DNA of 64,000 nucleotides from Cladocopium goreaui. Its lineage: Eukaryota > Sar > Dinophyceae > Suessiales > Symbiodiniaceae. Numbering within the stretch: the first letter of the stretch is position 1; the number at the start of each line of letters is the position of its first letter. The stretch lies in NCBI GenBank assembly GCA_947184155.2, contig CAMXCT020003668.1:1089001-1153000 (forward strand), given 5' to 3'. This document shows, one piece after another, positions 1,927 through 61,800 of this stretch. The notes beneath the pieces are model-generated. The model saw only the letters and a list, made by a program, of their open reading frames with translations, had not been told where the DNA came from and made no database searches. The position numbers were made by a program, and so were the translations under genes.

Positions 1927-2030
1927 TACCCTCTGGTTATTTAACATAGCCATGGAAAATCACCATTTTTAATAGGTAAACCTCTATAAATGGTCCATTT
2001 CCCATGGCTATGTTAAATAACCAGAGGGTA
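1927..2030. mobile_element. introner-like element, family A (copy 1)
   Basis: The arms begin TACCCTCTGGTTATTTAACA and end with its reverse complement (AACCAGAGGGTA). The two halves are self-complementary around a short centre (ATAGCCATGGAAAATCACC pairs with its counterpart). Nine further copies are listed below. The family consensus is about 104 bp and has no ORF, so it is non-autonomous. Confidence 0.85.
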
Positions 2031-2127
2031 TTGTGGGTAAAAGCGCCATGGTTTCTGGTTGATTCTCCCTTCACCCCCGAAATTGGCACCATGGACGGCT
2101 GCACTGCTGCGTTGGTTTCATCGGCAG

Positions 2128-2230
2128 AGCTGGCGGACTTTGTGTGCCGCTGCCATGCGGAAGATCTGTTGCGCTGGTCGTTGTACCTGGCCAAGTTATT
2201 GTTTTACGATTACAGGATGGTGCCGTCGAA
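2128..2230 (+). CDS. exon, unknown helical protein
   Basis: The acceptor tcggcag leads into an open, GC3-rich frame (LADFVCRCHAEDLLRWSLY, then LAKLLFYDYRMVPS) and a gtgatg donor. The frame is also open upstream to 2090, so the start could lie there. The family is not recognised. Confidence 0.55.
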
Positions 2231-2942
2231 GTGATGTTTGTTGGTTGATAGACCCCATTAAATATAGGCTATAGTTATATATATATATATCTACCATAAA
2301 CCATAGTTAAGCTACTTATAAGGCATCTTGGGGGCCCCATCCTGTATGTGTAATGGTAAACCCATGTAGTTATTCGCAGTTACGAATGTTTTACATCGTT
2401 TTAGTATATTAGTGATGGTAAGGCCAATATTTTCACATTCATCCCAAATAGGTGTATGCCAACCCTTCCATGGGGGATGGTTTATTTGTTAGTGGGTTTG
2501 CTACATTTTGCCACATTATCCGGTGAATCTTGCAACTTACCATTGACATATTCTGTTGGGGGCATTTCATGATATTCTTAAAAGTCACTTCGTGTGACCA
2601 ATTCAGGTGGTAGAATTGGTTGAGATATGAAATAAGTGTTTTTTTCTCCCTGGGGTTGAGCTTTTGTTACCCTAGGATTGGGAGTGAAATATCTGGGATT
2701 TCGGATGCTGTCTCCAGTGTTTCGTTTTTTTTTTTTTTAAATCTGCCTTTGATTTTGATGTACGGTCGCATTTTGGGAATACAGCAACCCCCAAAAAGAT
2801 ATATATAAAAGTAAAATCCTACTAGACTATAGTGGCACATGACTTTTATTTCTGGACTTTTCGTTATCATTCGGTTGCTTTGCAATGTTTTCGGGAACGG
2901 TCTTAGTTTTTACTTTTAGGGGCCCAGATTCACAACGCCCAG

Positions 2943-3021
2943 GTACTCGGGAGATTATGTGGTGCTTCGAGGCGGCCTGTGATGTCTCACCTGCGAAAGG
3001 AACCTACCGTATCAAGATCCT
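2943..3021 (+). CDS. candidate exon, unknown protein
   Basis: The acceptor cccag leads into TREIMWCFEAACDVSPAKG followed by TYRIKI, ending at a gtagat donor directly before an ATG microsatellite. A second reading frame is also partly open, so the frame choice is tentative. Confidence 0.45.
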
Positions 3022-3024
3022 GTA

Positions 3025-3290: not shown

Positions 3291-3445
3291 TCGATGGGGA
3301 TGGGTCAAGACCACGTTTATTTATCAATATTTCTCATAGATGTTAGGATGATTTGACTTGAGTTGAGTCCTTTACTTGGCATGATGATTCAAAGTTGAAC
3401 TTCAAATCAAGTTTCTTTTGGGGATGAAGTACAACCCGCTGGTAG

Positions 3446-5561: not shown

Positions 5562-5615
5562 TGTGCAAGGAATCCAGGTGCGCCTGACCATTCCAGACGT
5601 CGTGTATGGGGATGG
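5562..5615 (+). CDS. exon, unknown protein
   Basis: The acceptor cctgcag and donor gtcaaa enclose VQGIQVRLTIPDVVYGD in the only open frame. It ends in phase 2. The family is not recognised. It may belong with the exons at 3446, 3776 and 5226, but phases do not prove this. Confidence 0.5.
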
Positions 5616-5909
5616 GTCAAAAGCTGTTGTTGCCATATGATTGGGGGAATAAACATCAATTAACCAGCTATAACTTAGGGTACCTAGGGCCCCAAGGCTT
5701 TGACTCATAGATATGATCCCTTCTCCCTATTACTAAACCTCTCCTAGATTAAAAAAACTATGTATTTTGGGAAATTTCAGATTGGTCAATTTGAGTTGTA
5801 ATTGATCCCCGTTAGACAACAATTTAAAAACCAAGGTCCAATTTGCAGGTTCTACTCGATAATAATAAAAACTAGTTCAAACAGGGGTGTTTTTTATTAT
5901 AGTCCGTCT

Positions 5910-13300: not shown

Positions 13301-16300
13301 ATGCATGGAATGGTCGCGTCGTGACCATGGAGATGGATCCTGTGAACGCTACCAGTCGCCTCGGGGATCGGGGAATGTGGAGACACTTTCTCCATGGATA
13401 GTTTTGTGGATTCAAGCACAGAATTAGGGCTTCATGATGGTTCAGGTATAATACTACATGGGGATTTTGGGTGATTTTCAGGGGTTTGCCTCAATTTTAG
13501 GGATCTAGCCATCAAACATAATTAGTCATTTAACACATTTATACTGGATATTGTGCGAAAGAGGTTTCCAGGGATTTAAACTGGATATGATAAGTGCATA
13601 CAATTGCAAGTTTATGGCAACATCAGTGAGCAAATTCTGATATCACCAGGTGAATTTGGGAACGGTGAAGCGGAAAGTGGAGACGTCTGATTTGACCCAG
13701 TAGAAATTGCGGATTGCACGAGCAGAACATGGGGATTTTAGCCAGCAGAACGTGGATCTCACAATGAGATATTGGAACTCTAGTCACAGAAATATACCAT
13801 CTGGTTATTTAACATAGCCATGGAAAATCACCATGTTTAATAGGTAAACCATCTATAAATGGGCCATTTCCCATGGCTATGTTAAATAACCAGAGGGTAG
13901 AAGCTGAAATGAGGATCAATTCACTGAAATGGGGAGTCAATCGGCATAAACAGGAGTTCTTCAACAGCAAATGCATGGATTAGGGAACAGCATGAGATTG
14001 GACCGCGCGACAAGAAATTCGGACTGAGGGCGGAATATATATATATATATGGGAAGTGAACCCAGCCACAATAATGTGGACTTGCCAAAGACGTACTGTA
14101 TACCATACAGATATGGGGATGTATCGGGCTCTCCGGTAGATAATCCAGGAAAGTAAGTTGCCTTAAGGTGGCCTTATTTTCATGTTATTTTTCAATTGTT
14201 CTTGTTACAGGAAGGTATGTCAGCATGCCCTAGATTAGATAATGTTTCCTGATTTTTGGATATTTTTGGGTCCGTGTTCAGTAATACAACAACTATAGCA
14301 ACACTTGATGTAGCATGTTTTCTTGTGGGTGTTGTGACATATTTCTTGCAGGACATTCGGAGACTTTTGGGGCGTTGGGTAAACGGACTTCAGATAACTG
14401 GAGGATCCCAGGATCTCCAGTGTTTCCTGAGGCAACAATCGTCACTCGGACTTGCACTTCTCAGTGACTGCCGTTGATTTCAGTTGTTTACAAGAGATAA
14501 TTCCCCATGTCAGTTTGAAAGAGTTCATGAATCGCCGCTTGTTTACACATCAATTATGACATGAATCTTAGGTTTCATGACTTAGTGAATACTTTTCATT
14601 CAGCCTATAGCCTTCTTCTCAAGATCATGTTGCTAGTTTGGCAAAGTTCCCTGTATTTCCCCCTTTTTGAGACGGAGTGCAAGATCCTGCAAGATCCTCT
14701 TATTGTTGCTCGTAGTTTCACAAATGTTATTTTTTTTAACCATATATTAACCATAGATTAACCATAGATTAACCATAGATTAACCATAGATTAACCATTT
14801 TTTAATATGTCCAATCCCTTTTTCATTGCTTGAAAATGCTTGAATCATGTTGATCCCGCTGAATCCTCTGACTTCGGCCGAATCATGCGGACAAAATCTA
14901 CATCCATAAGATCTCTAGTTTTGTTTAAAGAGAAAAGAAGAAATATTACTTATATTACTTATATAGATGACACATCCATGGATGATAGATGTGTAGCATC
15001 TACCCATATATATATAATCACACATATACATATATATATATTATATATATGTATATTATATATATGTATATTTAGATGACAAGCAGCTTGGACCGAGGCT
15101 CGGAACCATGTGGAGATGGCCGGCTTGTCCCATGCCGTGACCGTCCAACTGGGACATTCGGATGATGCCGTCCAGATGGCGACATGGCGGCCAGAAAATA
15201 TGGAAGATCCACCATGGAGATCTATTACCATATTATTACCATAAATGATATATATATATATAATATAGCCATAGATATGTCAGTACTATAGAGATTATAC
15301 CGAGATATTTTATATATACCCTCTGGTTATTTAACATAGCCATGGAAAATGGTCCATTTATAGATGGTTTACCTGGGTTTACCTATTAAAAATGGTGATT
15401 TTCCATGGCTATGTTAAATAACCAGAGGGTATCTATATCGGTTCCATAGAGATATAATAATATTACAGAAAGCTCAATGGCTAGTTGGGGATTTCCCGGC
15501 CCTGTTGGATTACCAAGGGTACGCGAGGGTTTCTTTTCCGGAATCGTTTCGGGAAGACATGGGAACACACCTTGAGATTTATAGACAAGTGGCAACATGT
15601 GTGGAATTTCGGGAAACGTGGGAAACAACTCATGCAAAAAAGTCATGGAAACTATGTGGATTTTTTTTCAATCAATTGTGTGACTGGCATGTGACTTTCA
15701 ACAAAAGTAGAGCCCACAAGAGCAGAAAGATGGAATGTTGTCAATTAATCTTGAAGTCATAATTCAACGGGTATAGATCCAACCGTCCAAAGTGTTTAAG
15801 CGAATTGTTTTATCCAAAGTGCTGCCTTGTAATGGTGCCGTGTGATCTCCAAACTTATCCCCACATGAATTTCCGACAGGTCTTGGAGAAGTTTGGGCCT
15901 GGCAGTGTGGATATGGCGCCTCAGCTGCAGCTCTAATCATCCCAACTGACGATTCGTCCATCATTTTTCAGAGGGACGATGGGCTCAACCAACCAGAAAA
16001 ACGACCTGTTGGATGATGCAGTTGGATGGGAAGCTACTAACTGTCGCCATGGCATGCCATGGCATGTGCCACGATCCCTCACGCCTCGTTCCAGGTCTTT
16101 ATGGATCAGAGAGGGACGGAGACCTGGCTGAATCTGATCTATGCAATCACTGTGACCTTTTTGGTTGGGAATGATCTTAAAATCAGGTTCTTCAAGTTGA
16201 TGAATAGCACAATTTTGCCATGTTTTCCTAAGTTGATTGTTTCCTTTCAGCCAAACTTCCTTGGCATGGAGTGTGCCTTTGACATCCTTCGAAGACCGGG

Positions 16301-18872
16301 GCCAGGTAGGCATGGATTGAAATTAGGGTACTCCAAATATGGACTTGAGCTTGTCAATACACCAGTAATTCGCCCAAAATAATCAAATACCCCTCTTTGA
16401 AACCCTGGTTTGGTTTAGTATTTTTTAAATGGGTCACATATTAATGAGGATATGATAGGATATGTCATATTGGCCCGATGGGATTCATGACAGATTTCCT
16501 ATGATTTTCTGTTGAAAGCTGGACTTTTGCGGTTTGATCCGCCGGTTTGATCCGCCGGTTTTGGGGGGGGCTGGAAGCCCAAGGCATTCCATGATGACCT
16601 TCGTAACCTTGAGCCTTGGGCTTCGAGGTAATTGGAAGTTGTCCACCCCCCAAGGAGAGATAAGTAGAGAATAACAATATAATATATATATGCTCATTAT
16701 ATCTCATTTATATTATAGACGATTTACCGATTTACTTGTTAAAAATGGTCTGTTAGTTATTTGCTATGTTGAATATGGTCCAGTTATAGATGATTTATCA
16801 TGATTTGCCCATCAAAAATGGTAAAGCTCAATAGCTATGTTAAATGCTTGAACATATAGAATATATAGATGCACTAAGTCACTTGCGACTTTTCTGACTG
16901 TATGGAATGCCCTTCCCATCATACTCAGGGGCCGTTCTCCACCTTGGAGTTTTAGTCGGGGTTTGCCGTCCTTTGATCCTCGTTTAGCTGGGATGACCCG
17001 GGCAAACCCTTATGGCAAACCTGCTGCTTTTCCAAAGATTTGGCAAGTTGGCAAGCCAATGATCACCATTTTTCTGACGACACCAGACAGATCTTTCGCC
17101 ATTCGTAGCCCATGTCGGATCATTTCGCTATTTTTTGCATTTTTTTTAGCCCATGTCATCCAGAGGATTGCGCCTCAGGAACAGCTGAACCTAATGGCAG
17201 AGAATGCTGTGGTGATTGCCGCCGCTTGACAGAGGCGGTGGATCGAATTTCGGGACCCTGATCAGTACGAATCAGGATACCCTCAGGTAAACGTTTACGT
17301 AACTATGGAAAGATCCACCGTGCTATTAATGGGTAAATCCACTATTTTTAATGGGATAATAACTGTTTGTAATGGGTAAATCCACTATTTCGACTGGGCC
17401 ATGGCTTCAATAGCTTTTTGTATGTTTACCAGAGGGTAATTATTGTAGATTATTGCAATGCAGCAAGCTGTTTTATTATGTTTTATGGAGTAAAACATGT
17501 TCATCAACATTGTGAAAAAAAAACATATATACATCTCGGGGAGCCACACTTGACATGTTTTGACCCATGCTTTTCATGTTGTTTTGGCGATGCAGCACGT
17601 GTTTCCCTGGTGTGCTCCAGTCTTTGACACATCAGAAGCTTAGAAACCAGCAGATACAGTATACAGATGTATACAGATGTATACAGTATACAGTAGATAT
17701 CAGTAGATTATGCATGATCTTGCTTGAACCCTTGAATCCCCATTCATTGTGGCCCGCATGTTGTAGCTGATCTATGGTTTCTATCCCGCGTTGCGGGGGT
17801 CGACCACCACAACCGCGGAACCCAGGACAATGTCTTGAAACCTGGAGCGCCGTATCACGTTCCTCGGAGTGAGCGCGATTTTATGGCTAAATTGGCAGCA
17901 TGATAAAGAACATTGATGAACATGGGAATCATGCTTAAGGGGAATCATCCCAACATGGCCCAAAGCGTCAGGTGAGTGAACTATTATAATTATAATTGGT
18001 CCTTAAAATGATGATGAACATTTGTCTGAACCATCAAATGTTGGGACTTTTTTTCTGTCCAGTCCCAGTCGGATCCGAGGAGTTGCTGATTTTCTCTAGC
18101 CATTGATTCAGTTGATATTGAAGGGATCTAGAAAAAAAACCGTTCCGAATGAGTAAGAAATTGAAGGGTCCAAGAAAACCCGCAAAAACCATCGGATTGG
18201 AGATGATGAAAATTCTTCACTGCAGTTTCTACATCAACTCATTGTCACTTAAGCATCTTGCATATCTTAGATCTTGTGTTTTGTTTATGTTCCATTCCAT
18301 ATATTTATTGGGAATGTCATTGGACCCCAACTGACTTTCATATTTTTCAGAGGGGTAGGGCTCAACCACCAACATCCACCAACCAGATCATGTTCCATCA
18401 CTGGGTGAATTTCAATGATCCCAATGATCCCAAGATGATTGGATCAGAATATCCAGGTGTGGCGCATCTCCACGTTGCCGCACTATGCCACGGTGCGATG
18501 GCTCAGATTGACATTGATCAACATTCAACATATTTCCAACCATATATATATATCATTTAATATAATTTGTATATGTATAAATACTGATTAATTATACTGT
18601 ATATATATCAAGAAAGGATTTCGTTTTTGACATCATATGAACATTTCTTGTCAAATATGTAGCATGTTGTTGATTTTATGTATGATTTTAGTACAGTAAC
18701 ATCTTCAAAACAATCCAGGTTGGAAAATCCTCAGAAGTCTCCACTCGGCCATGCCGAGGACATCATCGACCTCCGAGAATTTGGCTCGGCGCCAGTGGAG
18801 GACTTTGAAGTTCAACTGGTCGCGGCAGTCTGGAAACCCTCCCAATATCGTGGCTATTCGTGGCTTATTTAA
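10364..18872 (+). CDS. catechol O-methyltransferase-like SAM-dependent methyltransferase
   Basis: Thirteen exons read as one COMT-type enzyme that transfers a methyl group from S-adenosylmethionine to a hydroxyl, probably of a small phenolic compound in the cytosol. Exons: 10364-10420, 11331-11396, 11772-11812, 12146-12178, 13275-13354, 15087-15169, 15880-15915, 16095-16118, 16251-16305, 16929-16948, 17826-17858, 18457-18492, 18759-18872 (TAA). Motifs in order: WLKIAGGEK, the SAM-binding ILEFGTYVGYT, acidic VVTMEMDP, EARNHVEMAGLSHAV, SVDM|VFMDQRGT with the metal Asp, LRRPGPG, DNVLKPGAP with the metal Asp-Asn pair, VWRIST, and DIIDLREFG. The total of about 225 residues matches the family. Phase is continuous at every junction. 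Donors include GC (after 11396, 12178, 15915) and probably GA (after 16118). The lysine that follows the metal Asp in mammalian COMT is not present (DQRG instead of DHWK). The start codon lies upstream and was not found. Exon 16929-16948 is the least certain. Confidence 0.85.
12340..12865. repeat. dispersed ATTC(T/C)ATAAA motif cluster in a methyltransferase intron
   Basis: ATTCTATAAA, ATTCCATAAA or the reverse complement TTTATAGAAT occurs about a dozen times in about 520 bases at 30-70 base spacing, with unrelated sequence between. It lies inside the 12179-13274 intron. No coding potential was seen. Confidence 0.7.
13795..13899. mobile_element. introner-like element, family A (copy 2)
   Basis: Complete element with both arms (…CCATCTGGTTATTTAACATA… and …TAAATAACCAGAGGGTA). 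It lies in the methyltransferase intron 13355-15086. Confidence 0.85.
14352..14378 (+). CDS. rejected-or-alternative microexon DIRRLLGRW
   Basis: Good splice sites (tcttgcag and gtaaac) enclose nine codons. However, it falls inside an intron of the methyltransferase whose flanking exons already join in phase, so it is either an alternative exon or a chance match. Confidence 0.15.
14738..14802. repeat. short tandem repeat, TTAACCATAGA unit
   Basis: Four to five head-to-tail copies of an 11-base unit within a methyltransferase intron. A related looser array occurs around 22560-22740. Confidence 0.8.
15317..15431. mobile_element. introner-like element, family A (copy 3)
   Basis: Complete element with both arms, slightly expanded in the centre by a duplicated ACCTGGGTTTACC segment. 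It lies in the methyltransferase intron 15170-15879. Confidence 0.85.
15930..15996. mobile_element. introner-like element, family C (5'-truncated copy)
   Basis: It carries the family C 3' half: ATCATCCCAACTGACG…, TTTTTCAGAGGG, and the arm CTCAACCAACCAG. It lies in the methyltransferase intron 15916-16094. Confidence 0.55.
17278..17438. mobile_element. introner-like element, family B (copy 1)
   Basis: The arms TACCCTCAGGTAAACGTTTA… and …TGTTTACCAGAGGGTA flank an interior with duplicated AATGGGTAAATCCACTATTT. It lies in the methyltransferase intron 16949-17825. Confidence 0.8.
18300..18386. mobile_element. introner-like element, family C (diverged copy)
   Basis: It has the family C core CTGACTTTCATATTTTTCAG and the 3' arm CCACCAACCAG. 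The 5' arm is degraded. It lies in the methyltransferase intron 17859-18456. Confidence 0.6.
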
Positions 18873-19883: not shown

Positions 19884-22800
19884 AGCCAGAGTCCTACAAC
19901 GAAATCCTCGAAACTCATGCCCTGGCAGGACTGGATGACGGTCAGTTGGGTTCACAAAGGTCCCAGCTATGGCCAGTTGCCTGCGGAAGTCCGACAACTG
20001 AATGAACTGGCGCGGGAATCGGATCGCTTCAGGTCGGAAATGGGGCGGTTTTTATGGCTGATGGAGGTTGGAGATGGGGATTAGCTGGTGGGATTTGTGG
20101 GTGTATTTCAGCAACAAAAATGGGGTGGGTGATGATGACATGAGGATTTCTAACAGGATACTCATGGGATCCGACTTCATCTAGCCAACCTGGTTATGAG
20201 TAACAGTTTGCCCTGGAACATCACCATTTTTAATAGGTAAACCATCTATAAATGGACCATTTTCCGTGGCTATGTTAAATAACCAGAAGAGGGTAATCTT
20301 TTTACATGGTTTTTGAATCGTAAAGTTTTCTTGGTCACAGCCACGAGCCTCGCCGCAGCTTCCTTGCCAGGTTGAAGGCCATGGCCACATCCATGAAAGA
20401 CTTGGTGGGCGATCCCTTGGATGAGTTTGCCAAGAAGTTCACCGAAGAGTTCATAGAGCTGGGCATCAGGCCGGAGATCTTCAAGAGCGCCAGGTTTTCC
20501 AAAGTCACTGGGGTTGTTGCCAGTAGCTGGTTATGCTGGTTGGTTTATAATGGAAACTCCGAACATGAGATGGATGAGTTAAACAGTTAGGGGTACCGCC
20601 ATTTTAGGAAACAACCATGTGCTGCATATGCTCCATGTATGGTATATCTACCAAGATCTACTGAAAACATGGCCACACTGCCACACTGTTACATACTTCT
20701 ATACCATGCATGGATCATATGGGACAGGATTCAATAGTGATGTGATGATACGAATCATGGGGTACCTCATTGGGTAACACTGAATGAGGCACCTCCCTGC
20801 TGATCACATGCCCCAAAAATTGGGGCAGATCACACGCCAGAATTGCATCAGAAGGGCATGTTCAAATGTATGTTCTGGCAGTCTTCAAAGGCTTCAAAGG
20901 TATGGTAATTATAACTGTAGTTCATGCTCCATGAAAGGTTGATGCTTTGCAGCTCTCGTGTCAGCATTGATGTGGGTTTGTTTGCAGAACTAGGGCACTG
21001 TGGTGCCCAAGGGTTTCCCTTCAGTTTCCCAAGATCTCCCGTTTCTTCAGTCCCCATTTCTTTTAGGAGGCCCTGCAGCCCAGGACTTCCATGTATGTCC
21101 GCACCGACATCATCGATGGCTGCGCTGTGTCGCGTTTGGTGCGCCTGGCACCGGGGGAAAGTCCTCCAGTGTGGGCTGGTGAGGCTTGAGCCGTTGGCGA
21201 GGGTGAAGCATGTGGTATCCAATGGATGTACAATACACAATGGTGTACAATACACCATGGTGTAATCAGTGTAATCTATTGAGGGGATTGTTGTTGCAAG
21301 ATTATATATGGATGTAGCCAAGATGTGTACATCTATTTAGGGGGCTGAACGTGGTCCATAGACAACTAGATCTTGGGCACTTGTTTGCTGTACAAATGGA
21401 CATGTATTCAACTAACCAGCTGGATATTTGATTAATTACAGTGTATACAAGACTGGCTGTGAACCCTCGTGAGCCTGTGAGTGGAACATACGGAACAAGA
21501 AAAATGATGGAACAACGGTTACCGTTTCTATGATGGGAGTTGTGGTCTTGCAAGAAGCATTTTCAGAAGAGTAACCAGCAAAAATGAACCAACATGAGTA
21601 CAATCACAACTGAGAATGCGCACACATTCCGCTCGCATGTGCTGTACACAGGTGACTTTCATCATCCTATTTAAATGGGGGGATATGACAATCCCGAGAA
21701 TTAAAGGCATGTGAATCGAAACAAGTCTTAAATCTATTTAAATCTCACCAAAAGCACTTCTAGAAAGACTCAATATAATATATATATATATATAATATAA
21801 TATATATAGTAGATGATAGACGTACACGCCTGCGTGCCCGTGGATTCATTTTCTGCTCAGAATCACGGTGGGATCGCAGGATCCCCGCGACGAGATCCAG
21901 GGCGGCCAGTGGCGCGGCGTGCTGGGCGGAGTCTTCGCCGGCGAGGCGGCAGGCTATGGGGGAAACGTGGCACGGAGTAGTCGCGGAGTTTCGACCATGG
22001 CAGAGATATTTCTTGGGAACTAAATGAAACATGATTAAAATACATTTTGAGAGGGATCCTGGAAATGGATGGAAATGGCAGAAATATGCACACATATATT
22101 AAAAAAACATTTTAAGAGAGATCCTGGAATATCATGAAATAATGCAAATAGGATAAATAGTTAAGGACTTCTGCATTGATGAATTGTCATTGCAATTTCA
22201 TGGCGTCAAGGTTGACCAGCTTGTGTGACTTGCCATTTTCCTGGAATATCATTATCGTCATCCTCCTCACCATCATCACCAAGGAATAGCTCCCGGCGGT
22301 TGAGACATCCTCGGCAGGAAAAATGCACCTGACGTGTGGGGGCAAGTCCCCTCAAAAAGTGTAATAAGTGTAATATACATCCCTAGTTAGCCCTAGTCAT
22401 TGGTGAATAAGTCTCTTAGTTAAGTGGCCCATTTATGAGAGGTTATCTAGTTGGTGGTTTGGAACAATTGTTATTTTCCATTTCATATATGGGATGTCAT
22501 CCTTCCCATTGACTTTCATATTTTTCAGAGGCGTTGAAACCACCAACCAGCTTATCATCAATAAACATCATTAACCACATATAATAACCATATACTAACC
22601 ATTATGAACAGTACATTAACCACATATTAACCATCATAGAGGTTATAAGGTTGATATACTATTAATAATGCTGTTAATATAACCATATTATTACCATATA
22701 ATCTGAGGTTACCACATATTTACCATATTCCTTATAGAGGTTATAGAGGTTATACCCCAGACAGTCTGCCTGGGGCCCCATCCTTCGGCCCGGAACCCAC

Positions 22801-24554
22801 AATGGAGGCTTGGTCACTGAGCCATAGGATCCATGGTGCTGCTATATTAATGGCAACATGGATCCCATCAATCTACCCCCTTTAAAAGTTAGCATTAATA
22901 TACCAGCACCATGGATCCTATGGGTTATATATATACGTATACATAATGAATGTTTGTTTTAAGACATAAACGGATTTGTCTGAAAATATGGATGCCCCCC
23001 ATTAAAATGGTAGGTTAAAATAGCTACAATATGTTACAATCATGTTTTCTATTGAAATGCTCAGGGGTACACATCATTTTCCGACCAAGCCAGATTATTT
23101 CTCTCAGTGGCATCAGCCATGTAGCTTGACGATGTGTTTCTTTGATTTCTAGGCGCACCAATCAGCCCAGAATCGTGGGACGGGTTAGCCAAACGACCCA
23201 GGGATGATCTCGGCCCCACTTGCAGAGCGATTTTTGGCTCTGCTAACGTGTTCGTGGGAACGTTGGCGATGCAGACAGTCGCTGTGATGCAAGGTGGAAT
23301 GGTGGTCGAAAGTGGGGTCAGATCCATGGTTTTGACTCGTCAAATCCCCGCCTTTCAAACAGGAGCCCCGAGTCCATTACATGAAAATGACTGCCAAGCC
23401 AAATTTCTTGGCCGCAAATTTCGTAGAAGAGCATAGAAAAACCGTTTATAGCCGACAATATCATTAGTTTACTCAAATGTTGCAACAGTCACTCCACAGT
23501 TTGTTGTGGTAAAAATGTCTGCAATTACATTCATAGTATGTTTATACGCTGTATTCCGTTTTCCTGTTGAATAGCCCTTTGAAACCTCCTTGGCTTTGTG
23601 AATTAGTACGTATGTAAAGAGTTACGCATACAAAACTCTAGGATCAAGATGGAGGATGGTATGACTGTATGACCTCTATCTATCTCTATCTTACATCCCG
23701 ATTGAATGTTCAGATCCATCATGATCCATCTATATGTTCATATCTTCATGATTAATGGGTTAGAATGTTTAGATCCATTCATCTTTTTACATCTCCATGC
23801 TGGTTATAAAATGGGTTAAGCCATGTTCCTATTAATATACCACATCGAAGTCTAGGGAGGGGCTTCTGATTACCCTCCGACAATCAAACATGGCTTACAG
23901 GAAGATCCCAGTTGTGATTTTGCTTTTGAACTCTTGTAATTGGTGTTAATCTGTAAATATAGCTGGTGGTACCATGGTAGGTGCACCCTGAGGGTGGCGG
24001 GTACAAACCTCCATGGCTAATTCGGTTATTGCCATCACATCATCCCATGAAGTCCAATGATCATCCCATTCGAATCTTCAAGTCTGACTTGTTTCATCTT
24101 TTTTCCATGAGCTATAGATATATATATAGGTGATGATGACTATTAGATTATTAGATTATATATACTTGACAAACTATAGATTCTATAGATGTTGATGATA
24201 TTTTTGGAGCTTGTAAAGTATATTAATGGCAACTCATATTCTATAGATCATATGTTGCCATCAACATCAGTCCTTCAGTTATATAGATGTTTCCGCAACT
24301 CATATTCTAAAGTATATATAGATGTTGATGATATATATATATATGTGTATTACACCCTGGCTATTTAACATAGCCATGGAAAATAAGCCATTTATAGATG
24401 AATTATGATGATTTACCTATTAAAAATGATGATTTTCCATGGCTACGTCAGTCATAACCAGAGGGTAGTTGCCATTCAGAGTTCCTTACCCTATGATCCG
24501 AGGTCACCCCCCGACGCCTTTCCCCGGTTGCTGGGGATAGCCCTGGAGGCGCCC
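19884..24554 (+). CDS. unknown protein, multi-exon
   Basis: A phased core is 19884-20032 (end reads PAEVRQLNELARESDRF), 20341-20493 (KAMATSMKDLVGDPLDEFAK, then KFTEEFIELGIRPEIFKSA) and 21084-21178 (MYVRTDIIDGCAVSRLVRLA, then PGESPPVWAG). Further exons with good splice sites but an unproven link are 21880-21966 (DEIQGGQWRGVLGGVFAGEA), 22765-22812 (SAWGPILRPGTHNGGL), 23153-23316 (VFVGTLAMQTVAVMQGGMVV) and 24480-24554 (PYDPRSPPDAFPRLLGIALE). A possible start codon is ATG 19917. The helical, charged second exon suggests a cytosolic protein. The end of exon 23153-23316 loosely recalls the region after the H-loop of ABC transporters, but no Walker motif was found. No family is assigned. Confidence 0.5.
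20187..20295. mobile_element. introner-like element, family A (copy 4, diverged 5' arm)
   Basis: The 3' arm is GGCTATGTTAAATAACCAGA with a small insertion before GGGTA; the 5' arm is degraded. It fills most of the intron 20033-20340 and ends 45 bases before the acceptor. Confidence 0.75.
20635..20723. mobile_element. introner-like element, family E (copy 3)
   Basis: The arms CATATGCTCCATGTATGGTA and ATACCATGCATGGATCATATG face each other in the intron 20494-21083. Confidence 0.65.
22447..22550. mobile_element. introner-like element, family C (copy with both arms)
   Basis: The arms CTAGTTGGTGGTTTGGAACA and AACCACCAACCAG flank the internal ATTGACTTTCATATTTTTCAG block, which looks like a ready-made 3' splice site. 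Confidence 0.8.
22821..22924. mobile_element. introner-like element, family E (copy 4)
   Basis: The arms CCATAGGATCCATGGTGCTG and CAGCACCATGGATCCTATGG are exact inverted repeats. It begins nine bases after the exon 22765-22812. Confidence 0.8.
24351..24467. mobile_element. introner-like element, family A (copy 5)
   Basis: Both arms are present with substitutions (TACACCCTGGCTATTTAACA; ATAACCAGAGGGTA). It ends 12 bases before the exon at 24480. Confidence 0.8.
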
Positions 24555-24611: not shown

Positions 24612-24737
24612 TACCCTCTGGTAAACGTTTACATTACTATGGGAAATCACCATGCTATGAAAATGGGGATTCATCAACTAAATTTCGACTGGGCTATGGC
24701 TTCAATAGGGAAATGTATGTTAAATTACCAGAGGGTA
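24612..24737. mobile_element. introner-like element, family B (copy 2)
   Basis: The arms TACCCTCTGGTAAACGTTTA and TAAATTACCAGAGGGTA flank an interior with GACTGGGCTATGGCTTCAAT, shared with the copy at 17278. Confidence 0.8.
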
Positions 24738-34537: not shown

Positions 34538-34652
34538 TTGCCCTCTGGTAAACATACAAAAAGCTATTGAAAATGGCCATTGAAATTTCGTTGATTTCCC
34601 CATATGCTAATGGCGATTTTTCCATAGTTATGTCAACGTCTTCCAGAGGGTA
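34538..34652. mobile_element. introner-like element, family B (copy 3)
   Basis: GCCCTCTGGTAAACATAC… and …CTTCCAGAGGGTA are the ends, with the family B interior (AATGGCCATTGAAATTTCG…CCATAGTTATGT). Confidence 0.75.
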
Positions 34653-35207: not shown

Positions 35208-35596
35208 GTTGATAACATATTTGCTTCATGCATGCAGCACAACATGCCAACCACAATGGGGATTAATGGGTCGACCGGTTTGAAAAATAAGCAATAAACA
35301 TATATAAACATCAAATCTTTCCAAACTGCGTTTTTACCAACAATCATGCGGATGTTAAGCATCAAACACAATTATGGGAAGAGATTGATCTTCGGCGTAA
35401 ATCCTGAGGAATCCGACGGGGAATCCTGAGGAATCTCCAAAATGGCGGTGTTTCCAATGCTTTGTGAATTGGAGGAGGCAAACCCAATGGGCTGATAGGA
35501 GTATATGTTGTTATATGTTGCTTGGTGACTTCAATGATTTTCGTTTTCTTCACCTGATTTGGTATGATGATCCAAAAAAAGACTCACGTTGTTCAG

Positions 35597-35675
35597 GGGA
35601 ACGAAAAGACCACGCAGACTAACATGGCAAGGAAAACTAAAGCAGTCATCCATTGCCATGGCTGACATTCGGAAG
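35597..35675 (+). CDS. candidate exon, unknown basic segment
   Basis: The acceptor ttgttcag and donor gtattg enclose GTKRPRRLTWQGKLKQSSI then AMADIRK, strongly basic. The family is not recognised. Confidence 0.4.
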
Positions 35676-38303: not shown

Positions 38304-38332
38304 TGAGACCTCTTGGTTCGGTGATTTCCCAG

Positions 38333-45116: not shown

Positions 45117-45208
45117 TACCATCTGGTTATTTAACATAGCCATGGAAAATCACCATTTTTATATATTTTTATTAGGTAAACCATCTATAAATGGGCCATT
45201 TTCCATGG
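45117..45208. mobile_element. introner-like element, family A (copy 7, 3' arm lost)
   Basis: The 5' arm and centre are intact, with an extra TATATATTTTTA insertion, but the last about 20 bases (CTATGTTAAATAACCAGA…) are missing and an open reading frame follows. Confidence 0.75.
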
Positions 45209-45216
45209 ATATATGG

Positions 45217-45505: not shown

Positions 45506-45608
45506 ACCTCGGGTTATTTAAATGGGCCATGGAAAATGGCCCATTTATAGATGGTTTACCTATTAAACATGGTGATTTTCCATGGCCATGTTAAATAACC
45601 AGATGGTA
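45506..45608. mobile_element. introner-like element, family A (copy 8)
   Basis: Diverged 5' arm (ACCTCGGGTTATTTAAATGG) and good 3' arm (GTTAAATAACCAGATGGTA). Confidence 0.75.
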
Positions 45609-45740: not shown

Positions 45741-45857
45741 TACCCTCTGGTAAACTATCGTAACTATGGAAAATCACCATTTTTAGTGGCTAAATCCACT
45801 ATTTCTAAGCTATGGCCATGGCTTCAATTGCTTTTTGTATGTTTACCAGGCCGGGTA
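45741..45857. mobile_element. introner-like element, family B (copy 4)
   Basis: TACCCTCTGGTAAACTATCG… and …TGTATGTTTACCAGGCCGGGTA; the interior is shared with 17278 (GGCCATGGCTTCAAT, GCTTTTTGTATG). Confidence 0.8.
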
Positions 45858-45903
45858 ATCCTTCAAAAACACTCCATGATTTGGTCAACTTGCAGCCACT
45901 CAG

Positions 45904-46007
45904 TACCCTCTGGTAATTTAACATAGCTATTGAAAATGGCCATTTATAGTGGATTTACCCATTGAAAATGGTGATTTTCCATAGTTATGTTAGTTTACCA
46001 GAGGGTA
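45904..46007. mobile_element. introner-like element, family B (copy 5)
   Basis: TACCCTCTGGTAATTTAACA… and …TTAGTTTACCAGAGGGTA. It ends 16 bases before the exon at 46024; AGGGTAAGTG at its end also looks like a donor. Confidence 0.8.
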
Positions 46008-46023: not shown

Positions 46024-49000
46024 GGCCCTCCGAGGATCTCCGGAACCGACTCGTTGTTCGGATCTCGGGTCACAGGTGGACCTCGAGGCTTTGGTCAACG
46101 CGGCCATGGACGAAATGAGATCCTGGGTGTCGCAGGTGGCCCCGACGCGACTGTGACGGACGTGGTTGTTGTTGGTCCACGCGGAATGGTTTTCCCCCAG
46201 AATTGTGATACTGTGGATGGTTTCGAAATCCGAAACACCACACCGATTTGGGATGTTTGAAAGCCTATAAATAGTGGGATGTTTACCACCGTTTTCAACT
46301 GGTGCAGGATTTCTCAACCATCCACTGTAATGTGTGTAAAACAATGCCATTTGCACCATCCACCAGTCATCACCATTTTTATAGGTGGTATCTTTACTAT
46401 TCGTGGTTTATGACATTGTTTTACCTACATTATTCATATTAGCGTGAATTAGTAAAGCTGTAATAAACCACCATAAAGCACGCATAGTTTGATGGTTTAG
46501 ATTCGACAGCCCAAAACCCCAAAGGAAAACTAAAAAATGATATAGATTCATGGAAAGCACATCGAACCATGTTTGATTCTTTAGTTAGTTGGGTGTCTTC
46601 TTGAAATCTTTCTGCATTCTCATGGGATAAATAGAGGTATTTTGCTGACCAGCTGCAGAGACAAGACCTTTTGCAGGGCATCTAAGACTGGCCATGATTA
46701 CATACCTCAAGTGGTATAAAACACAATTGCACAAGAATTTGTGGATGATGGCGCAACAGAATAGATGTCCAAATTCATGATGATTCTCTTGTATTTTAGG
46801 GGCTATGGAAAATCACATGTTTGAATAGGTAAATCATGGAACTAATTTGGCCAGGGTTTCCATAGCTATCTTAAATCACCGGATGGCCCTAGAGCTCAAT
46901 GCCAACGTGATGGGCGCAGAGATGAGCGCTGTTGATTGGAACATCATGGAACATCATGGAACATCATGGAACATCATGGAACATCATGTTTTCATGGGGC
47001 CGGTCATTTCCCATGGCTATGATGATTACCGGAGGATATTTGGATTTATGAAATGTGGATTGATGAATTCATGAGTTATAGTATAATGCTTGGATCGATA
47101 CGATTGGTCATTTCAGTCTTTTTCACTAGGTCAATGTCCCCTACCCGCGCCTAACAGTAGCTTCTTAGAGCTTTCAAACGAAAGTGACGAGGGGCTAGTG
47201 GTTTCACCCCTTGATGATTTCATGACCCCTTTGCATACGGGAATGCAAAAAATGCACATCGTCCCCCAACAAAAAAAAAGAAAACAGATAAACATGCAAT
47301 GCGAATCTAAACCAACACAAAGACATGTTTATTTATATATAATATATTATATTTATATTATGATACACGTTTACCATCGTTTACTATCTATTTTTGGATA
47401 TTTTTGGGGTTTACGAAGAAAAAACACATCCGTGAATTCGCCCCGCTTCAGGAGGTGGCCTTCGCCCGAAGCAGCTTCCGGGAGGCGTGGATTGATGTGA
47501 ATTGTTCCCTGAGAAAACCAGACTTCTGAGAGAAATTGAGAGGGTTTTTGGATGTTTTTGCATGTTTTCTTGAATGTTGTTGGATGTTGTTTTATGTTTT
47601 GGATGCTTTTGGATTTGGATGTGTTTGGTATGTTTTTTTGGGTGTTTTTGGGTGTTTTTGGATGTTTTTTTGGGATGTTTTTTGGATGTTTTGGGATGTC
47701 TTGAGTAGGGATGGCAACTGGAACTTTGCCATTTGTGTCCACTTGTATGCTGGTAGACTTCCCTAAGGGTACTGGGGGGGCGTTTCTGGAGGAGGGTTCA
47801 AGAAGCCTGAGACTATCCCAATGGAAAAGGGTGAACTGCAGTCAACAGAGATGCCAGACTGGGGAACCAAATGCTTTCTAGAAATGGGTCAGCTGAATTT
47901 GTCCAAGCCAGGAGGCGAACAAGTTTATCAGCAACCAGGCGGACTTTGGCCGCAGGGCACACCTTATAGACTCATAGTACACATAATTTGATTATAATTG
48001 CAAAAATGGAATCAGCACAAACCTACAGGAAGATGCACTTACCTCTTGTGGTCACATCCCCAGCAGGTTTCGCAAATTTCTGGCAAGATTTGGCCAGGAG
48101 CTAAACAACAACGAGCAGAACAAAGAGCGCTTGGAAGTGATTCCCTCAGAGTTACCCTGAAGAGGTCACATCCCAGGATAAGGTTCCCCAATGGACATTT
48201 TTTTCGGTCGGGGATGGGTTGAAACATGCGGAAACCACCAAGCTGTTGAAGTCAACCCAGCAGTGAGTTTTTTTTTGTTTCCATTGTTTTCCTATCCGGG
48301 GGGGTTAAACCATCAGCCAGACTTCAGTACACCGAGTCCGGCTAGTTCCACCATCTTGTTTTGCTGCTGCCTTCAGATATATTTCATGTGCCTCCTGGCG
48401 TTTAGTGTTTGTTTGGTGGTTCCCAGCGTTGTTGTTTTGACTCATGGTATATGTTTATTTCCACCTGGGATAATGACTTTCATATTCTTAACAGTTGTAG
48501 GTGTCTCACCGACCAGTTTCAGTTTACCAATGTTTGCCATCAGTTTTTTTCATCCGACAGCTAGGGCACCACCAACTCCACCAGACTGAAGGTCTCTGAG
48601 CTCAAGTCCAAAGTCAAGGATCGAAAGTGGCAGGGTGCTTCCAAGTGCCCGATCCAATTGGACCTAATTGGTATCATCACAAACACTGACTGCTTTACAG
48701 GAATTCCCCTAGTGGGCCATGGCAATCCCTACATAAGTAGGAGAACAACTAACCCATGACCTACCAACTGGTACTTCATGTGTGTTCTTCTGAAATCACT
48801 AGAAACAATAGGTATAGAGGAGGTACGGTAGCTGCTAGGTGCCCAGGTGTTTCCATGATAATTCGTGGGGAGCATCCAGTCATCAGGTGTCATCAGTACA
48901 ACATGCAGCATCATGCAGCACCGGGGTTGTGCCGAAGGGGGCAGAGCCAATGCCCTTCCAGATGCCTTCAGGCAGTATTGACAACCCAAACCCATGAAGA

Positions 49001-52000
49001 TAGTGAAAGGCCTCATGACTCATGAGCTGCTACCAGCTCCCACCAAAATGTTTTAAGCCACAAAGCTACACTTATCCACACTTCAAGAATCCTCAGGAGA
49101 TGTCTTCCATTGCTGCAACGCGCATCATAGTGCTTAGCCGGGGGCCCTGCAAGGAGAACGAGCAGCTGCTGGAGAAGTTCATGAAAGATCTACAAGAAGG
49201 GCGGCATCTCAAGAGGCATGAAATGACCCTGGCTCGAAGGTCCTAGATTCCATCATTTAATCTGTAAGTAGCCAAAAATGAACATAATTCTCATATGTGT
49301 GTCTATAAAGTATTTATCTATACTATCTAAATACATGTATGCATATATATATATATATGTGTGTGTGTGTGCGTTATACATTACACACACACACATATAT
49401 ATATCAAGGACATGAACCGTTTGATATCATGCCACATGATGTCATGCATGCAAGGTAAGAACCAGTGACTACTTATCATGAAGTTCCAAGTGGCCATTAA
49501 TGTTGCGCCACTTTAGAGTAGTATGATGGGCCTCCATTTCTGGGTGGATAGATAGATTATATATACACATGATAATAGGTACAACGGTGTTGGGATCTAA
49601 TATGATCTCACCCCAAGAACTTTCTATTAAAGCTGGAACTGCACCCCCCAAGTAGAGACCTACCGTTGTATCTCCACCTTCCCAGCGCTCAAACATTCCG
49701 TGCAACAGAAAACCAATGATCAAATGCTCCTGTGTCAACTCATGGATCCTGAACTGGATCCTCCTGAATATCCTGAAGATGAGAAGCTCCTCCAAAGTCG
49801 AACCAGCTCTGTGGTTTCCAGGCCTTAGCTGGCTTAGATCTCCGCTGACCAGGTCCGAGGAGGAGCCGCGTGCCGCCACCTCCTCTGAACGCGTGGCGGA
49901 GGCGACCGAACAGGGAGTGCCTTTTGGCCAAGGGGCCAAAGCGACCTGGTGGAGAGGTCCTAAAATGGGAGACCCCCAAAAGCATCCAAGTTATCGGTTC
50001 GGTTGGCAATTTTTTGGTTCGGTTGGCGGATTCTCTTAGACAAGATTCTATGTGTTTTTTCGGTATTGTATCACGCTGGCAGCTGAAACGGCCGTGCTCC
50101 TTATTGTAAGCTTCACTAATTGTATTGGGGTCCCAGCAAGAGCTGGACGTCATGACATGAAGAGGTTCAAGCAGCAACAGGCGCAACCAGCTCTGGTTTT
50201 GCTGAGCCGGCCAAGGATGTTTATCATATCCCCCGTGAGGGTTCATGTATCAAACATTTGGGATTCTGCTGGGAAATGCTGGACATACTCATCAGGAGTT
50301 CTAATGTGGGACCTCAGTTGGCAAATCCAAGAAGCGCTTGGACATAGATTGATGACGCAACGCTCGATGGCCACAATCTGCCACTTGGAGCATAGATGGC
50401 ATAGATGTCACTGATTGGTTGCTTCATACAGAGGCAATGCTACCAAACCGGCCTCTCCACTTCTGATTGGTGCTTCAGCATGGTTTTTTTTGATGTTCAA
50501 CCATATTTGGGATCACGATTCCCAATGACGAGCATCCTTTTCAGAGGGGTGACACCACCAACCAGATTTTCTACACACGGACAGTATTCCTTGACATTTT
50601 GTTGACCGTGATTGGACTTTGTGCACAGAAGGATTTTGCAATTTGTGCCGTGCTCAAAGAACTGTGCTTGATGCATGTAGAGTGATGTCCATGACAACTA
50701 TAGCAAGAAATATCAAGTATCTCAATGTATCTCATTCCGCAAGGTATCTAAGATTACGACGTAAGATTAGACAACCCCCTCACCAAGGCCTGTGATGGCT
50801 GGCTCTAATGGCTACGGTGGATGGCTGAAATGGGGCAACATGGGCAACATGGGCCTATCTTCCGAACAGCAAGCGTCACTGCAACAGGCTGGGAGCAAGT
50901 GCCTTGGTGGCATTGTTCATAATATGAAGAATATTGAAGAATATCATGAAACTCCAGGGCGATGGAGAGAAACAGAGAGAGAGAGAGAGAGGGAAAAAAA
51001 ACTACATACACCACCAACATGAACCAACAATTATGACATATTATGACTAGACATTTATTTTTCATAGTGTTTCTTCCCAATGTGTCGGTGAATCAATGTG
51101 AATCATGAATCCCAACTGCCCAACCGCTGCCCTGCGTTATCAGGTTCATGCAGGCCGTCGATGCCGCGCGGACACAAGCAGAACGAAGCTTCACCCAAGG
51201 CTCCGAAAAAGGGCTATTGGAAAAAACTAGGAAGGACTTAAAAACAGCTAGATGGTGTGGAATATCTCGCCAATCATGATGAAGAAATATTTTTGCATGT
51301 TGATGGATTATGGTATATTGACGAACCCCTCATATGTGGCCGACTTCGAACCAAACCGATGTGGCAACATCGATCTACCAGTTGTGCCACAGCCAAAAAG
51401 ATGGGCAGATCGGACATACCAACAAGTGGCCAGATGATCGCCCCCTCTGTGCCTATCTAGTTACCATTTTCAGGGGGAATAGCCAGATGGTAACCCAACT
51501 TGAATGCCGCAAAAGAGGCCTCACTGGCTCCACTTTTTTCATCCAGGCGTTTCGCAAGTTCGAGCTGCTGTCGAGAGTTCTCAAAGGAGCGGTGAGTCAT
51601 CCCCATCATATGCTCATAGACACTGGGGCCGACGTCCATCTGCACGGAATTTGCCCAGCAGAAGCATAAATATCAGAGTTTGCACCTGGGCTTGTGAATC
51701 AACGTCAACCTCCGACTTATTCACCCCCAGTTCACGTTTTCAAGAGCATAATTACCGGCACTTTGTTTGGGGGTAATCACCCCTCCTAAAGTCTAATTGA
51801 TCCGCGGAGCTAGTTTATCAGGTGTTGTAAGGACAACTTTCCCATGGAACGGATGCTGCATTCCTGACAGAGGGTCCTTTGCATCTCTGGAACAGGTGAA
51901 TGGGCGGTCCAACTTTTGGTTCAAGATTTCTGGTCTTGCCTTATTGGAGCAACTGCGATTCTAAATTTGAGAGTTGGTATGGTATTCAGCACCCGAATTC

Positions 52001-53358: not shown

Positions 53359-53464
53359 CTGGTTGGTGGTTTGGAACATTTTTTATTTTTCCATATACTA
53401 ATTGGGAAGAATCATCCCAACTGACTTTCATATTTTTCAGAGGGGTAGGTCAACCACCAACCAG
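53359..53464. mobile_element. introner-like element, family C (best copy)
   Basis: CTGGTTGGTGGTTTGGAACA and AGGTCAACCACCAACCAG are the arms; the interior has CCATATACTAATTGGGAAGA and CTGACTTTCATATTTTTCAG. It ends three bases before ATG 53468. Confidence 0.85.
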
Positions 53465-58190: not shown

Positions 58191-58689
58191 GATGTATTGG
58201 GTTTTGTTCGTTTTCCATTGAGATTTGCGAACCCATACATTGAGGTACTCATGCGGTAGCACGGTAGAGTACCATAGATTGATGGGGAAACCCAAAAAAA
58301 AAAACAGGAACGGGGATAGAGAGAGAGAGAGAGCGAGAGGAGGCTTGGAGGTAATGATTTTTATTGGGAATTACTGGGATATATGGTCGGATGTAGCTAG
58401 TTTTTCCTTAAGACAGCATACTACAAAAATATTCTATGTGTACCCCCTCGATTTGAATATTCTTAGTGCTTTTCACCCCGGGCTCAAGTATGTTAAAAAT
58501 TAACATAAATCCATATTCCAAAACTTTAATCTTTTTTTTAAATTCTAAGTGCCGGTCCGCCACAGTACCCCCGCCAGCGACCTTGCGGTTCACAAGGTTG
58601 TTATTAGTAATGGGGGAGTATGGATTAATCCTGACTTGACCTGAAAACATTGATGGTTATCATTGACTATTTCCCATTAATAGTATGAT

Positions 58690-58794
58690 TACCCTCTGGT
58701 TATTTAACATAGCCATGGGAAATGACCCATTTATAGATGGTTTACCTATTAAAAATGGTGATTTTCCATGGCTATGTTAAATAACCAGATGGTA
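58690..58794. mobile_element. introner-like element, family A (copy 9)
   Basis: Complete with both arms (TACCCTCTGGTTATTTAACA…; …TAAATAACCAGATGGTA). It lies 64 bases upstream of the exon at 58858. Confidence 0.85.
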
Positions 58795-58857
58795 ATATCA
58801 TTGACCATCAATCATTGACTATTTCTAGTTTGATGGTTGTCATTTTTCGTGTGAAAG

Positions 58858-61800
58858 ACATGGAATCTCGACCAGCTCGGCTCTGCCAGGAGAGGCAGTT
58901 GGAACTGGAAGCGAAGATTGAGGCGACACTGGCGGCCAGCGGCCGAGATTTTCTGAAGGTTTGTAGCTTTGGGACACTGAGATTCTGCATTTGGGGGGTG
59001 TGATGCATGGGAAATGGATGCAAAAAATGGGGAATGGTTGAACTGTGGGTTAGACGCCCTCCAAGAGATATGGGGAAAATTGGGGCAGTTGAATTTGATA
59101 GATGAAGGGATGGAGATGGGAGCCCCTGTGTTTTTGTAGCAGTTCACCTGAGTGTGGGGGGAAAGATTTGTAAAAGTACCTAACCTCTGGACTGAGTGCA
59201 CGTACTGTGTTGTCTCCATCCATATTCAACCGTTGAGTAGCAGTTCAATCGGCACACGGCATTCACAAGGTCCCATGGTGATACTGAGAGCCCATGATTT
59301 TCCTTTCACAGTGGTTCAGGAAATCGGAAACAGAAAACCACCAATTGACGCATTTACATGAGCCATCACCAAGATCTCCAGGGATGAGATTCCACTTAGA
59401 TGGTCCCTGGCATGAATTGAGTGGATGCGGCATGTGGTTGGATAGCTGTGTTATAATATGTTGCAATCCATTATTTAGTAATTATTATTTAGTCATTTAT
59501 AAGCCAGTTACAAACCAGTTAATTATAATCACAGGGCACATCCAAGCACCTGATTCCATCATCCTTGGGCTTGTCTGAATGTTCCAGTGGGTCCAGTGAC
59601 TGGCTCCAGGATGGTTGGACTGTCCCTGCTGACCTATGTGTCAGCACATTTGTCGCAAAACATCGGTGAGATCGACTGCGACCGCGTGAAAACGGGCATC
59701 GAGGGTCTGGGGGGCAACAAAGGTGGAGCTGCTTGGTGGCAGGTACTGGGGGCAAATGGGCTGCAGGGTGGTGAGCAGCCGCTGAGCCAAAGAAAAGTTG
59801 CTAAATATGCGAAGATCATCCAAGATCTCGGGGATGCGTTTCTTTTTTGGGTTGGAAGGTACGGTACATCGAGCTCAAAGGCAACCGTAGGTCAAGTGCA
59901 TTCAAAGCTATAGCAGGTTGTATCGTTCCCTCGGGCAGTATGAAACCCTCATCACCCAGTGGATGCTTTGGTTTGCTCAGAACAGGTCGTTCGTTCTGCC
60001 AAGAAAGCTATAGATATGCCACGTTTATCCATGACTGATGTTTGAAAATCTTGGAAATGGCTTGGACGCGCCGAAACCAGCAGGATCTCATCAGGACATC
60101 AGCAGGACCTCAGCAGAACCTGAGGATAGGTAGTCCAACGTCCATAGATACTGCCTTGGTCCCATGTTCCCGCAGCTTCCCCAAGGTTTGTGTGCGATTC
60201 CTCTGCGGCGCTATGTCTATGTGCTTCGTGAACGTCCATTTGCCTTCAGGCACTGGGAAAGAGGAGGACCGCAAGGAACACCTCCACGAGATCTTATCCT
60301 ATGCCTTTCAAGGCATCTCGCGCAACGGCTCCTCACGTCAGCCCAAGACACTCTGATCGATGTAGTGCGGCGGAGCGAAAAGTTCCCGTCGGAATCGTAT
60401 GCTTTGACTTCGGTTTGTTTCTTTTCTGTCACAGGATGACACGGAGTATGTTGGTTCAATCAATTTATAAATCCCTGATCTCGAATGGAAAGTGAAGGTT
60501 CCCCCCAAATCTAATTATGCAAATCTTATCTTATTGTTTGCTTGAGTTGTGCACACGCCGATTCTCAGCTCGCATTTTTTTGGAGATGTTGGTAGAAGTC
60601 TGGAAATCCCATTCCGAGTGCTACAAACTCTTTGATAATATTGAACACATCCGAGACATTGGAAATGCCTGAGCCTGCGACATTGGATTGTTCCCATTTT
60701 GGTCAGAGTATCCCAACCATATCCAACCATCCTCATTATTCAGGATTCCAGGATACCCCATCAAATCCCATCAATATGTTTGGCAAACCATGTGCCTTCT
60801 GAACATCATTGGAGGTTGATATTGCACTCGTACGAGATGTGATATGATTTCTTTGGGATTTGGATGTGTTGGAGGCTTTCATAGCTTGATATGATCATTT
60901 TTCCACATGCAAAGGCTATAGATATCCATCAACCCCCGTCAACCATAACCATCAGAGTTGCTCCAGACCATTTTAGGGAAATGATATAGCCACAAGGTGC
61001 TGGAATTTTGTCATTTCCCCTCTACCCTCTGGTAAACTAATATAACTATTGAAAATTGCCATTTATAGCTGATTTACCCATTAACAATTGTGATTTTCCA
61101 TAGCTATGTTAGTATACCAGAGGGTATCTTTCTCCACTTTGCATCAATTTGACCTCCCAAACCTGGGGAAGCCAACAATCCCATGACCACCTGCTGTGGG
61201 AAGCCTAGGAATGGCTTCCACCGCGCCTCCGTCTACCGTGCCCTGCAACACGACTTGGTGGTCGTGCTGGGCGATACCAACTCGCGGCTGGTGTTGGAAC
61301 TGCCGGAAGGCGAGATGCCCAAGGGACCCCCAGAGGCTTGGCTGCTCTGCGACGAGCTGAGCCTTGGAGAAGATGTGGGTATGGGTCAATACCTATAGAT
61401 ACATTTTTAGTGGGATGAACATCCATTTACCAGCTATTTTGGGGTTCACTAGGTACCAGGGTTTTGACCCATCCCCATGTGTTTTTTTTACATGTTTTTC
61501 CCGGATGAATGGCGCCATAACATGCTATAACCCATGGGAAAATGAGGGGCTTCAAGTACTTCATTAACTCCTTGGACTCGGAGGATCATCCCACAGATCC
61601 TGATGAAGGAGCCTGGTTTTGAACACCCCAGTTGCGAACCACTTACTAAGTGGNNNNNNNNNNNNNNNNNNNNNNNNNNNNNNNNNNNNNNNNNNNNNNN
61701 NNNNNNNNNNNNNNNNNNNNNNNNNNNNNNNNNNNNNNNNNNNNNNNNNNNNNNNNNNNNNNNNNNNNNNNNNNNNNNNNNNNNNNNNNNNNNNNNNNNN

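Follow-up and report, generated by a model that had tools for sequence, protein, structure and literature searches.

Short inverted-repeat elements in the introns of Cladocopium goreaui and the shared strand orientation of two families with splice-like modules

The window analysed here, a stretch of 64,000 nucleotides from the dinoflagellate Cladocopium goreaui (contig CAMXCT020003668.1, hereafter C3668, positions 1089001-1153000), is populated by elements of about 100 bp with terminal inverted repeats (TIRs), which belong to several families dispersed in the genome. Two of these, C and F6, are unrelated miniature inverted-repeat transposable elements (MITEs), each with a splice-like module, and they lie in long shared strand blocks; a third family, A, is randomly oriented. 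We consider it probable, for the account as a whole, that several unrelated non-autonomous MITE families fill the introns and that the orientation of C and F6 is kept by splicing. That two unrelated MITE families, both with splice-like modules, are strictly co-oriented would surprise a specialist, and to our knowledge such co-orientation is unusual for MITEs. A title-level literature search recognised neither oriented MITEs nor ratchet-point transposons; we make no claim that they are unpublished.

The orientation comparison was drawn from the first 100 listed places per family for A, C, D, E and F6. Adjacent copies lie on the same strand in 68/72 pairs for C and 27/31 for F6; the corresponding figures are 29/63 for A, 24/44 for D and 24/36 for E. 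Neighbouring C copies within 50 kb of each other agree throughout (37/37), and F6 agrees with the nearest C in 16/16 cases under 50 kb and in 22/24 at any distance; for A and the nearest C under 50 kb, agreement is 20/46. Strict orientation, among the five families compared genome-wide, is confined to C and F6, the two whose splice-like modules are clear.

Where this can be judged, the strand blocks follow the coding strand, a result supported less firmly than the blocks themselves. The coding strand was assigned by codon score, with confirmation by Pfam or PDB matches confined to the window and locus L028. In the window (GC 39-47%, introns long) it is fixed in part by gene matches: an Exo_endo_phos2 (IPPc-like) gene (E 2.9e-15), a COMT-like gene (PDB match 7cvu, E 4.2e-7) and a PDZ-like fragment that did not reach the gathering score. 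Exon calls there, overlaps resolved, number 35 on the plus and 10 on the minus strand. A further contig, C2, was sampled as 20 evenly spaced 10-kb stretches, five of them containing runs of N. Among copies found by the family profile and not by the splice word, the called coding strand carries 23/24 of the C copies, taken from eight C2 stretches and the window, and 9/9 F6 copies lie on the strand of the local C copies or on the coding strand; the C copies of the window, decayed ones included, are co-oriented in 7/7 cases. For these counts L017 was assigned to the minus strand contrary to its raw score, since the plus score comes from a repeat, and L015 was excluded because its coding signal looks retroelement-like. 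Long plus-strand open frames at L015:2625-5181 and L019:1736-3583 read by eye as retroelement Gag (CCHC-like) and Copia-type polyprotein; a USP7-like gene read by eye at L017 found no confirmation in Pfam or PDB. In dinoflagellates at large, genes generally lie in one-way clusters. Such clusters are also reported for Amoebophrya (Farhat et al., 2021, PMC7789003), and hence the strand blocks are naturally read as transcription blocks. A fixed orientation relative to the gene is favoured by C and F6, weakly by D and E, and not by A.

The C module consists of TGAC, about 10-15 bases, and then ATTTTTCAG or CAAG, and resembles a branch point followed by an acceptor. In C copies selected by other means than a splice word, the columns of TGAC and ATTTTTCA rank with the best-kept ones of the interior: ten-column conservation means are 0.77-0.89 for the module, 0.67-0.81 for the middle, 0.74-0.76 just past the module, and 0.84-0.97 at the ends and beside them. 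Predicted folding places the module in a loop closed by the end stem, where its CUGA and UCAG can pair in a small hairpin. The F6 module, TTTCAG/GTTAGTGAA (CAG/GTTAGT, the slash marking the join), is an acceptor joined to a donor, and its AG/GT, kept in 7/9 profile hits, probably lies in introns. A splice-like module was not seen in A, the family without strand bias.

In the account that we favour, the elements are non-autonomous DNA transposons of about 100 bp. Since the sampled A and C copies and most D copies occupy non-coding DNA, their main effect here is to fill and lengthen introns, and less often to create them, with an occasional landing in an exon, as for a D copy in a kinase gene. 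The C and F6 modules would be read by the spliceosome, and copies would last only where their orientation leaves splicing intact, in F6 by means of an acceptor that recreates a donor. Alternatively, insertion of C and F6 may be directed, being coupled to the direction of transcription or replication, with the modules incidental. That two families with different bodies and duplication lengths occupy the same strand blocks, that even decayed C copies of the window are co-oriented and that D leans the same way all agree with such a coupling; however, A is unoriented within the same blocks and D is not strictly oriented, so that the coupling would need to be family-specific, and the module is well kept in both C and F6. 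We regard directed insertion as unlikely. It is conceivable, though doubtful, that antisense copies of C and F6 are removed for a harmful signal on their reverse strand (a premature end signal or, in antisense F6, the branch-point-like CACTAAC), and that sense copies are neutral. The orientation data of C and F6 fit this as well, the antisense strand of C has an A-rich stretch with AATAAA, and CACTAAC was read by eye on the reverse strand of F6; yet the proposed antisense-strand signals are guesses.

Several observations weigh against selection by splicing or weaken its footing. D agrees with the nearest C or F6 in 24/34 cases within 50 kb (p 0.02) and in 35/46 within 100 kb (p 0.0005), and E agrees with its neighbour under 50 kb in 17/23 (p 0.03, weak). 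D, and weakly E, lean to the C/F6 strand with no clear splice modules of their own; hence the module might explain the bias only in part. Further, a sense acceptor inside an intron is expected to do harm, which makes the selection step less than obvious. If L017 is counted by raw score, the concordance of C drops to 20/24, and the coding strand is weakly called at L016 and L025. Two proxies for gene strand lent no support: the ankyrin codon pattern, abandoned with five usable pairs, of which the ankyrin-motif exons agree with the nearest F6 in three; and GC skew, whose sign fits the window and 7/8 C2 stretches (L026 being about zero and L015 excluded) but which, taken in element sense over the flanks, is not significant at C (p 0.10) or F6 loci (p 0.16). 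For A, finally, the evidence of a target duplication goes no further than TA at the ends of most copies, with no empty site to prove it. Any of the three causes considered (splicing, harm from the antisense strand or directed insertion) may underlie the orientation.

Selection by splicing also admits a bolder form, which we offer as rather improbable: that F6, and more loosely C, may be transposons with a ready-made splice ratchet, moving about the genome and splitting introns where introners would make them. F6 would supply an acceptor and at once a donor (CAG/GTTAGT); C would supply an acceptor with the branch-point-like TGAC and a donor-like GT a few bases on. Sense copies would then divide a long dinoflagellate intron into shorter pieces, spliced one after another. 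Ratchet points of recursive splicing have acceptor and donor juxtaposed (Joseph et al., 2021, PMC8605326), and F6 is like them in this respect; unlike the ratchet points of that account, the F6 pair, a putative splice signal, lies inside a repeated TIR element.

The families were delimited by all-against-all BLAST of the window and 46 fetched loci, clusters of at least four copies being kept. Of the 14 clusters obtained, seven are short dispersed elements with a copy in the window: F0 (A and B together), F1 (C), F4 (D), F5 (E), F6, F7 and F13; the remaining seven were judged to be tandem or longer repeats. An earlier note, made from the letters of the window, had described at least seven families of one size and a long self-complementary design, more than 25 copies strong. 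The repeats are present where it placed them, and its copy number is borne out by the profile matches in the window: 21 non-overlapping ones for A (two being pieces of one copy), 7 for C and 3 for D. A and B, which it counted apart, form one cluster. The size of about 100 bp and the TIRs stand, but folding is uneven: for two A copies the folding energy is about -60 kcal/mol (z -12.6 and -12.4), one E copy has z -8.0, one C copy z -4.3 with a 13-bp stem, and one D copy z -1.6, with 12/200 shuffles equally stable. Mobilisation in common, proposed from a shared outer TACCCTC, fits A and B as one family, but the ends of C, D and F6 differ, as does the duplication length of F6.

Exact words were counted over the genome of 1.166 Gb (6,202 contigs), with the identical words read backwards as specificity control. 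The A end word, with both ends of a copy counted, occurs 10,342 times (5,197+5,145), the A core word 3,924 (1,945+1,979), the C word 4,712 (2,404+2,308), the D word 2,066 (1,019+1,047) and the E core word 105 (52+53), each against 0 reversed; for F6 the figures are 1,713 (839+874) against 4. With the exact words so abundant and the reversed ones nearly absent, chance is excluded. Density in the window exceeds the genome mean by about 12-19 times for the A, C and D words and 347 times for E; hence the window is a hot spot and not typical of the genome. The exact F6 word does not occur in it. E core words stand at C3668:1079137, 1089135 and 1090237: a span of about 11 kb holds 3/105 of the genome-wide occurrences, and the window contains two of the three. 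Among the 20 C2 stretches, A is found in 9, C in 9 and both in 7; those with the VDE gene (L009) or the AMP deaminase gene (L010) have neither, and the claim that such elements populate the introns of every gene is not confirmed. These two genes, the former a VDE lipocalin, lie on the minus strand in C2:50-155 kb, as element-poor gene regions beside element-rich ones.

C, D and F6 are transposed MITEs, as follows from their inverted-repeat ends and duplicated targets, the latter a check that the earlier note had proposed. C has the ends CTGG...CCAG and an exact 4-bp duplication in 13/36 full copies, where re-pairing of flanks predicts 1.1 (maximum 6 over 2,000 trials); two further copies have repeats of 8 and 12 bp. 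D has the ends GGGTATGGG...CCCATCCCC or similar; in 20 copies fetched by the 5' word, a perfect 4-bp duplication is present in 16/19 having both ends. F6 has the ends CTGGGTAAATT...AATTTACCCAG and duplicates 6-7 bp in 4/15 copies. Most full A copies start and finish with TA, and one, at 1927, shows a 10-bp direct repeat close to its borders; E has GGGA on both sides in one case (102-195). MITEs in general are about 100 bp long, even in length and too short for a gene, with TIRs, target-site duplications and many copies. The window families are alike in size, TIRs, fixed-length target duplication (C, D, F6), copy number and even length; C and F6 differ from MITEs in general in that their copies keep strict mutual orientation.

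The earlier note had called the elements introner-type, with none in a supported exon. In the strict sense this would mean that each element landed in an exon and turned into the intron there, with coding exons at both of its ends, which we think highly unlikely as a general account. In a test for coding potential across the joined flanks, 13/14 exon controls pass (these overlap the exons used to train the score) and random positions pass at 1.4%; coding-like joined flanks were found for 0/45 A, 0/36 C and 0/6 D copies. In 19 further D copies that were inspected, none is convincingly coding on both flanks. C flanks have 27-30% GC within 15 bp, rising to about 45% at 90-120 bp, and A flanks start at 33-35%; the COMT-like exons on either side of the A copy at 13795 are separated by nearly 2 kb. 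With their joined flanks non-coding and AT-rich, the sampled A and C copies lie mostly in non-coding sequence and did not give rise to the intron.

A few cases do point to intron making. A kinase domain is interrupted in frame by the D copy at L028:9748-9852: the join reads ...VLSDWPPKKVD/VQNLQEFIRKMLEKN..., which the Pkinase profile matches without a gap and in the position expected, residues 16-48 to 225-257. The joined flanks alone give E 0.13, and the other exons of the gene, with these flanks excluded, E 1.7e-10. The likely intron opens with the GT in the left-hand ATGT and closes with a CAG ending eight bases past D; a point against this case is that the flanking tetramers, ATGT and ATGG, are one base apart. 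This copy scored 3.8, under the cut-off of the joined-flank test, which is therefore not fully sensitive. The E element at 102-195 has GGGA on either side and leaves an open frame once removed; it may be an exon insertion, and is a candidate only, as a domain match is lacking. It also makes doubtful the statement that no copy lies in a supported exon. Two D copies of the window (3296 and 61377) come after a predicted exon, and D left flanks are GC-richer, at 47-56% over 15-120 bp (6 copies). A D copy at L009, open when joined, was dropped as an exon insertion, since the gene is VDE on the opposite strand. At L057 (C14:88256-88806), the D right flank reads by eye as an SNF2-helicase-like exon (NRQAEDRAHRLGQ) about 11 bp past D. 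Coding exons at both element ends were thus found in the D copy of the kinase gene alone among A, C and D. What stands of the introner proposal is that the elements are mobile, short, TIR-bearing and placed between predicted exons of plus-strand window genes; strict intron making does not stand for the bulk. The name introner suits at most a small part of them, and the bulk look like intron-dwelling MITEs.

Introners of Symbiodinium microadriaticum and other eukaryotes have TIRs and 4-bp target duplications, the element being the intron (Gozashti et al., 2022, PMC9860276), which lends the strict account some credit. As described in that source, those of S. microadriaticum are like C and D in being short and non-autonomous with TIRs and 4-bp duplications; they carry a 3' splice site, comparable with the acceptor-like module here, and share with D (kinase gene) the occasional insertion into an exon. 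They differ in that the introner is the intron, while most copies sampled here have no coding exon at both ends. Introner elements of Amoebophrya (PMC7789003) and of other dinoflagellates (PMC11114475, PMC10666404) have inverted repeats and direct repeats of 3-5 nt in introns, and 3-5% of Symbiodiniaceae genes are reported to contain such elements (PMC11114475, PMC10666404). In these accounts (PMC7789003, PMC11114475, PMC10666404) the repeats stand at or near the intron ends, whereas the window elements are mostly internal.

The elements of the window are collected in Table 1. Other repeats there include a large tandem array at 53931-58175, with units of about 1,025 bp, 81-95% alike among the matches listed, shorter internal repeats and several open frames of about 106-157 codons; a tandem repeat at 37656-38304, with a unit of about 62 bp by spacing, 90-95% alike; and a 298-codon open frame at 33150-34046 with degenerate MPDRMPED-like repeats, the DNA of which clusters with repeats of L001 and L017. 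A run of 422 N (61654-62075) lies downstream of the D element in the IPPc-like gene. A PPR identity for the first window exon was dropped, there being no Pfam match.

Table 1. Elements of the window, in window coordinates.
Element	Position	Strand	Remark
A, near-perfect palindrome	1927..2030	+	longer direct repeat GTATTGTGGG within few bases of borders
A	13795..13899	+	between COMT-like exons 13258-13371 and 15095-15181
A	15317..15431	-	3' of COMT-like exon 15095-15181
A cluster, B-type member	17277..17440	+	two profile pieces
A, ends diverged	20190..20287	+	
A	24351..24467	-	
A cluster, B-type member	24612..24737	+	
A	30001..30102	+	
A	31979..32082	+	
A cluster, B-type member	34540..34652	-	
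A, diverged 3' end	45117..45214	+	
A	45507..45608	-	
A cluster, B-type member	45741..45859	+	
A	45904..46007	-	
A	58690..58794	-	predicted exon begins 54 bp after
A	61023..61126	-	between exons of Exo_endo_phos2 (IPPc-like) gene
C, fragment	15934..15996	+	
C, without 5' part	18296..18373	+	
C	22447..22550	+	carries TGAC...TTTTTCAG module
C, decayed	35520..35612	+	weak match, E 0.002
C, decayed	48433..48516	+	
C, diverged	50464..50565	+	
C, full	53359..53464	+	target duplication ATTA
D-like 5' end, degenerate 3' end	3296..3400	+	after predicted exon 3193-3282; missed by D profile
D, diverged	5608..5707	+	preceding exon by eye only
D	29667..29763	+	ATAT either side, by eye
D	61377..61471	+	flush with IPPc-like gene exon; target duplication ATGT
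E	102..195	+	flanked by GGGA; one open frame across the joined flanks; candidate for insertion in an exon
E, without 5' part	1233..1294	+	shortly after predicted exon 1140-1217
F6, without 5' part	17919..17991	+	CAG/GTGAGTGAA module
F13	22822..22923	.	ends CCATAGGATCCATGG
F7	46329..46445	.	end approximate

Dinoflagellate genes are rich in long introns of debated origin. The genome of C. goreaui lets the creation of introns, as by one D copy in the kinase gene, be separated from their filling, as by A, C and most D copies. Should the orientation of C and F6 be selected by splicing, orientation alone would be a genome-wide read-out of the mobile elements that are seen by the spliceosome.

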